A DNA stretch of 64,000 nucleotides from Opitutales bacterium (lineage in GTDB: Bacteria; Verrucomicrobiota; Verrucomicrobiia; Opitutales; JABSRG01): assembly GCA_028280845.1 (NCBI GenBank), contig JANQKZ010000060.1, positions 1-64,000 on the forward strand, read 5' to 3'. Within the stretch, counting starts at the first letter, position 1; each line of letters starts with the position of its first letter. Below, one piece after another: positions 44,236 through 44,538 of the stretch. The notes beneath the pieces were generated by a model. It did not search any database. It was given only the letters and a program-made list of their open reading frames with translations, and was not told the origin of the DNA. A program made the translations under genes and the position numbers.

Positions 44236-44263
44236 TTGAAATTTCAAATATTCTGCCGATATT
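44236..44263 (+). promoter_or_regulatory. Promoter of small-RNA candidate 1
   Basis: TTGAAA (44236-44241), 16-base spacer, GATATT (44258-44263), with the predicted start near 44271 at the base of the first hairpin. The second copy has the same arrangement (TTGAAT-17-GATATT). Confidence 0.55.
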
Positions 44264-44270
44264 GGAAATG

Positions 44271-44352
44271 TGACTCCTTCTAGGAGTCGGGGTAACAGAA
44301 CAAAGTAGAAAATGAAGCGCGCGGCTTAGGGGTAGGTCGCGCGCTTTTCTTT
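44271..44352 (+). ncRNA. Small-RNA candidate 1 (first of a tandem pair)
   Basis: About 80 nt. Hairpin 1: GACTCCT/AGGAGTC (44272-44278 with 44282-44288). Then a single-stranded linker starting GGGGTAACAGAA and ending AAAGTAGAAAAT. Then a strong terminator stem of ten or so base pairs built on GCGCGCGG/TCGCGCGC (44317-44344) with an AGGGGT loop, followed by TTTTCTTT. The linker and terminator loop match copy 2 almost base for base; the stems differ by compensating changes. No ORF of any size fits inside it. Confidence 0.75.
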
Positions 44353-44413
44353 GTACGGCTCTCAAGCCGGATTTGTTAAAAATCTGATAAATATTTTTTT
44401 ATGAAAATTGTTC

Positions 44414-44442
44414 TTGAATAAGGAGGCGTTGTTGCAGATATT
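44414..44442 (+). promoter_or_regulatory. Promoter of small-RNA candidate 2
   Basis: TTGAAT (44414-44419), 17-base spacer, GATATT (44437-44442), with the predicted start near 44450, again at the base of the first hairpin. Same geometry as copy 1. Confidence 0.55.
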
Positions 44443-44449
44443 GTAATCC

Positions 44450-44538
44450 TCACTCCCGTAAAGGGAGTTTGGGGTAACAGAATAAAGTAGAAAATAAGTG
44501 GCGCGCGACTTAGGGGTAGGTCGCGCGCCTTTTTTTTA
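44450..44538 (+). ncRNA. Small-RNA candidate 2 (second of a tandem pair)
   Basis: Hairpin 1: ACTCCC/GGGAGT (44452-44457 with 44463-44468). Linker from 44471 with one substitution in about 25 bases against copy 1. Terminator stem of twelve pairs GGCGCGCGAC.../...GTCGCGCGCC (44500-44529) with the same AGGGGT loop, followed by TTTTTTTT. In the terminator, a G.T pair of copy 1 (44324/44337) is an A-T pair here (44508/44521); in hairpin 1, T-A became C-G. These are covariations. Confidence 0.78.

Follow-up and report, generated by a model that had tools for sequence, protein, structure and literature searches.

Tandem small RNA genes with two GGGGUA boxes, members of an RNA family of the Opitutales

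The two units and their surroundings

The window, a stretch of 64,000 nucleotides, lies within contig C35 of a host genome of 4.79 Mb, which the organism names attached to homologous loci place in the Opitutales. About 9% of this genome was covered, in the form of stretches. Two units of about 85 nt each are found on its plus strand between two genes of the opposite strand (Table 1). In each of them a promoter-like element precedes a 5' hairpin, which is followed by a conserved linker of single-stranded RNA and by an intrinsic terminator. This anatomy had been proposed in a preliminary description and was present as stated: the first hairpins start 180 nt apart, the linker 25-mer GGGGTAACAGAAYAAAGTAGAAAAT differs at one base between the units and the two terminator loops are identical. 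When GGGGTAACAGAAYAAAGTAGAAAAT was searched with up to 3 mismatches, just the two unit sites were detected within the window, and none in 100 shuffles. The folding of both units was far stronger than that of shuffled sequences, with z values of -5.0 to -6.9. On the other side of the 126-aa gene, a region of about 1 kb (45008-45990) contained no ORF of more than 80 aa on either strand.

Table 1. Positions of the two units, their parts and the protein genes considered here (window coordinates unless a contig is named)
Feature	Position	Strand	Basis
160-aa protein, UvrB/UvrC motif, flanks units	43664-44146	-	Pfam
Unit 1	44272-44352	+	
Unit 1 promoter-like element, TTGAAA-16-GATATT	44236-44263	+	consensus scan 9/12; family-wide upstream TTG[AC] enrichment
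Unit 1 hairpin 1, GACTCC/GGAGTC	44272-44288	+	fold; pair covariation in family
Unit 1 box 1, GGGGTAACA	44289-44297	+	near-invariant across family
Unit 1 A-rich linker with AGAAA core	44298-44315	+	alignment A5
Unit 1 terminator hairpin and U-rich tail, box 2 GGGGTA at 44329-44334	44316-44352	+	fold, terminator call, covariation, family-specific loop
Unit 2	44452-44537	+	
Unit 2 promoter-like element, TTGAAT-17-GATATT	44414-44442	+	direct reading; top two-hexamer score; under threshold in consensus scan
Unit 2 hairpin 1, ACTCCC/GGGAGT	44452-44468	+	fold; covariation
Unit 2 box 1, GGGGTAACA	44471-44479	+	near-invariant across family
Unit 2 A-rich linker with AGAAA core	44480-44499	+	alignment A5
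Unit 2 terminator hairpin and U-run, box 2 GGGGTA at 44513-44518	44500-44537	+	fold, terminator call, covariation, family-specific loop
126-aa protein, flanks units on other side	44598-44978	-	Pfam match sub-threshold
Host single-RRM protein (L187)	G000:C62:49061-49273		

The stems of the two units had been said to differ by two compensating changes. The U-A to C-G change in hairpin 1 is indeed two-sided, whereas the G.U to A-U change in the terminator stem is one-sided, and the pair of units alone is therefore weak evidence. The promoter-like elements and terminators claimed for each unit are present (Table 1), and at this locus hairpin 1 begins at the predicted start, as described. For the family as a whole this position does not hold. 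Among 91 non-redundant members, 57 have a TTG[AC] that starts 40-57 nt 5' of hairpin 1, compared to 4-11 members in most 9-nt bins further upstream. With the -35-like element at this distance, the transcript would start some nucleotides before the hairpin. When the two hexamers were scored across the complete upstream region, the best value was 7.92 versus 7.91 in shuffled sequences and showed no excess, so that a -10 element is not established for the family.

Distribution, structure and neighbours of the family

The first relatives were found by a DNA search of 51 genomes of the same order, where the unit was present in many families. Covariance models were built from 15 sequences (R1) and, more broadly, from 97 sequences (R2). 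Such a search of the Verrucomicrobiota had been proposed in the preliminary description; it recovered homologues whose stems covary. With R1, 57 of 58 same-order genomes in a class-wide draw were positive, versus 1 weak match among 228 others. R2 detected the RNA in 97 of 135 Opitutales genomes that were at least 90% complete, and the R2-negative Opitutales genomes listed were mostly small (0.8-1.3 Mb) or belonged to the families f2, f4 and f7. The sRNA gene is carried by most Opitutales with larger genomes. Phylum-wide, a single weak match was observed outside the Opitutales (E = 7e-5; the E-values of R1 and R2 are rough, and the usual scores of 50-97 bits leave a wide margin). In a collection of named genomes the pattern matches were overwhelmingly from Opitutales, and the carriers include Pelagicoccus mobilis, Cerasicoccus maritimus and Ereboglobus sp.

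Positive genomes have 1-7 copies, and tandem pairs or triplets occur in at least 5 families. In family f10 (L016, L017, L046, L048) two divergent tandem paralogues lie side by side across several genera, one with an extra hairpin in the linker and the other with none. Their retention side by side suggests separate roles. The host genome has a third, diverged paralogue on the minus strand (L036/L223, G000:C37:12233-12325), in which GAGGTAACAGA replaces box 1 and the terminator loop is TGGGGTA; it scored 33.8 bits with R1 and 39 bits with R2. Another host locus on the minus strand (L035, G000:C50:72263-72344) contains TAAAGTAGAAAATAA, which is part of the sRNA linker, followed by a terminator. 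This linker match without GGGG boxes is a relic or a chance similarity. On contig LBRC01000022.1, which is labelled Parcubacteria, a copy of the Opitutaceae type (L135:832-910) directly follows an AT-rich lspA-like gene. The base composition shifts sharply, and the contig is probably chimeric. The viral contigs and plasmids that were searched gave no match, and a phage or plasmid origin of the sRNA was rejected on these grounds.

The secondary structure was analysed in two alignments. With the 97 sequences, which were fitted to the model so that the alignment leans towards its structure, 368 cells with two-sided changes were counted versus 81 in the shuffled alignment and at most 65 in slid controls. 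In a MAFFT alignment, which is not structure-fitted, the terminator helix was 99% paired and the whole structure had 42 such cells versus 17 in shuffles. RNAalifold recovered the same two helices. Hairpin 1 covaries at 6 of 6 pairs and is 84% paired. U.G pairs are frequent, occurring in 72 of 94 sequences at one terminator position, and since the opposite strand would have A-C at these positions, they indicate that the plus strand is the functional one. Selection on structure, as first proposed from the two units, is strongly supported once the relatives are added. The accompanying claim that sequence conservation is limited to single strands was not borne out: the terminator pairs that close the loop are also kept in sequence; of the 94 distinct sequences, 93 have the U-A pair and 87 the A-U pair. 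Nor did the suggested pairing of the CTCC arm of hairpin 1 with a Shine-Dalgarno sequence hold up, as this arm is base-paired and CTCC or TCCT is found in just 59 of 97 members.

It could be argued that there is no functional RNA here and that two terminators resemble each other by chance or recent duplication. The weakness of an isolated pair of copies favours this argument, as does the fact that transcription is predicted from sequence, but the order-wide conservation, the covariation, the positional promoter signal and the family-specific loop speak against it, and the homologues in practice refute it. We regard the tandem pair as almost certainly belonging to a genuine RNA family.

The genes next to the family members vary. 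Relatives of the UvrB/C-motif gene adjoin members in five sampled genomes. A DUF721-like and a thymidylate-synthase-like gene are the neighbours in family f10, and YgfZ-like genes with DAHP-synthase-like or PhoH-like genes in the Opitutaceae; except for the genes within the window, these names come from reading the sequences and not from Pfam. A same-strand gene (DAHP-synthase-like or PhoH-like) often follows 30-150 nt downstream in the Opitutaceae, as would be expected of a cis-acting leader or attenuator whose terminator governs read-through. In the window and in several other families, however, the next gene is convergent. The downstream gene changes from family to family, the tandem copies are directly consecutive, and the family alignments revealed no other conserved pairing able to break up the terminator. 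A cis-acting role is therefore very unlikely. Since the neighbours differ between families, with no single downstream gene tied to it, the RNA is free-standing and probably trans-acting. It shares with trans-acting sRNAs an intrinsic terminator and a conserved secondary structure, the latter seen as covariation in both helices. Judged from its sequence features, the sRNA would be transcribed and act in trans.

The GGGGUA boxes and their possible partner

The invariant core of the family is the motif GGGGUA, which occurs twice: one copy lies 3' of hairpin 1, the other in the loop of the terminator. In the family layout, the 5' hairpin is followed by box 1 (UGGGGUAAC) and a linker containing AGAAA, and the terminator loop carries box 2 (UUAGGGGUAG). 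Exactly two GGGGUA motifs are present in 89 of 97 members, about half of which had been fetched by a pattern containing GGGGTA. Of the 49 members fetched without this pattern, 48 have an exact box 2 and 41 an exact box 1 (GGGGTAA). In two members of divergent families, L015 (G011) and L012 (G018), both boxes are located in hairpin loops, and the box 1 loop of L015 has closing pairs of the same kind as those of the terminator. The simplest reading is that the two boxes are equivalent sites for one shared partner.

Whether Opitutales terminators have a GGGG loop in general was also considered. In 460 kb of the host genome, the terminator calls with a GGGGTA loop were units 1 and 2, the paralogue at C37:12233-12325 (minus strand) and the weaker L232 (CCGGGGGTAACATCGG). 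At other Opitutales loci, 45 terminators had GGGG within the loop or next to it, and 43 of them belonged to the family. With just four non-family calls of this kind, the idea was rejected. A mimic of the Shine-Dalgarno sequence, in which GGGGU pairs with ACCUC via one G.U, is unlikely, as the better matching GAGGU is rare while GGGG is kept.

The partner of the boxes could be an mRNA. In a base-pairing sRNA, the GGGGUA boxes would be the seeds for UACCCC in mRNAs and would alter translation or stability, maybe with a chaperone other than Hfq. The small size, the U-tailed terminator and the single-stranded G-rich box are typical of such sRNAs, and this usual shape counts against a protein partner. 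Of the sites outside the sRNA itself that match the 10-mer complement YTACCCCWAA, 13 of 112 lay at sense translation starts in sRNA-positive genomes and 5 of 89 in sRNA-negative genomes, but this excess has no statistical significance (p = 0.21). Candidate targets are the genes of LacI-type regulators in two families (L236 in the host and L442 in G022), where TTACCCCTAA or TTACCCCAAA precedes the predicted start by 51-58 nt; in the host, TolC-like and DUF1080-like genes have a site at the start. Against base pairing, 373 predicted starts of the host showed no enrichment of UACCCC, and one of the boxes sits in a loop whose stem is very stable and whose closing pairs are conserved. Recognition of a shaped loop by a protein would explain these conserved loop-closing pairs. 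We place protein binding slightly ahead of base pairing: that this is a family RNA whose two GGGGUA boxes bind an RNA-binding protein is our tentative choice, with base pairing a quite possible alternative.

Known families of RNA-binding proteins were searched for in Opitutales genomes. Hfq was detected in 0 of 57 Opitutales genomes including the host, in a search whose control worked. CsrA was not found in the host and was absent from 28 of 37 genomes and present in 9. RRM_1 proteins were found in 34 of 37 Opitutales genomes searched, the host included (Table 1). The host RRM resembles eukaryotic single-strand binders, among them hnRNP A1, which prefers UAGGG-like sites. The occurrence of the RNA and of RRM_1 showed no correlation: several genomes have RRM_1 without the RNA, and no RRM_1 was detected in G009 and G011, which have the RNA, so that the RRM protein is a candidate only. 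GGGGUA was not enriched at the translation starts of sampled genes, which counts against a protein that also binds many mRNAs there.

With a protein partner, the two boxes would be two contact sites for the same single partner, an RNA-binding protein held or titrated by the sRNA in the fashion of RsmY/CsrB and CsrA. The near-universal single-RRM protein of the Opitutales would rank first among the candidates. The ends of the RNA may be shielded by hairpin 1 and the terminator, and additional copies might give a higher dose. A wider proposal is that the sRNA titrates or guides within a novel global post-transcriptional system formed by GGGGUA sites together with a bacterial protein (RRM or other), which would follow a CsrA-RsmY-like logic with unrelated parts in bacteria without detectable Hfq; this we consider rather unlikely. 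An order-wide, multicopy and strongly covarying RNA with an invariant double box offers an entry to post-transcriptional regulation in the Verrucomicrobiota, and the sRNA would be a defined bait for its RNA-binding protein.

Comparison with known RNAs

That no known family accounts for the RNA had been stated in the preliminary description, and the comparison with Rfam 15 agrees: neither the units nor 28 homologous loci matched a family at threshold, and the weak matches were far under the cut-offs. Among the papers searched for sRNAs of Opitutales or Verrucomicrobia we found no description of it, and none that dealt with small RNAs of Opitutales; an account in a subscription journal is possible. 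The trpB RNA motif (RF04312) has a similar two-hairpin layout with a terminator, but its score was 21.9 bits against a cut-off of 59, which is at chance level. With the Hfq-dependent class II sRNAs the RNA has an A-rich single strand and a U-tailed terminator in common, whereas the Opitutales are without detected Hfq (0/57).

RsmY, RsmZ and CsrB contain a short repeated purine motif in loops or single strands, with at least two sites per RNA. The Opitutales RNA likewise repeats a short motif in a loop and a single strand. The motif is GGGGUA, however, and not the GGA site of CsrB and RsmY, and the host has no CsrA as a partner.

The closest concept is FopS (Rfam RF04319) of Bacteroides, which comprises paralogous sRNAs that act with the RRM protein RbpB (PMC11697453). 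Both RNAs are multicopy, have an intrinsic terminator and a conserved single-stranded stretch, and occur in hosts with RRM-1 proteins. The FopS model scored 15.8 bits against a cut-off of 56, and there is no sequence relation. FopS consists of a single-stranded 5' stretch and a terminator, whereas the Opitutales RNA has a 5' hairpin and the same box again in the terminator loop; in the Opitutales, the RRM partner is a candidate. In conclusion, we regard the RNA as a new family; its general kind is known, and its double-box design is unusual.
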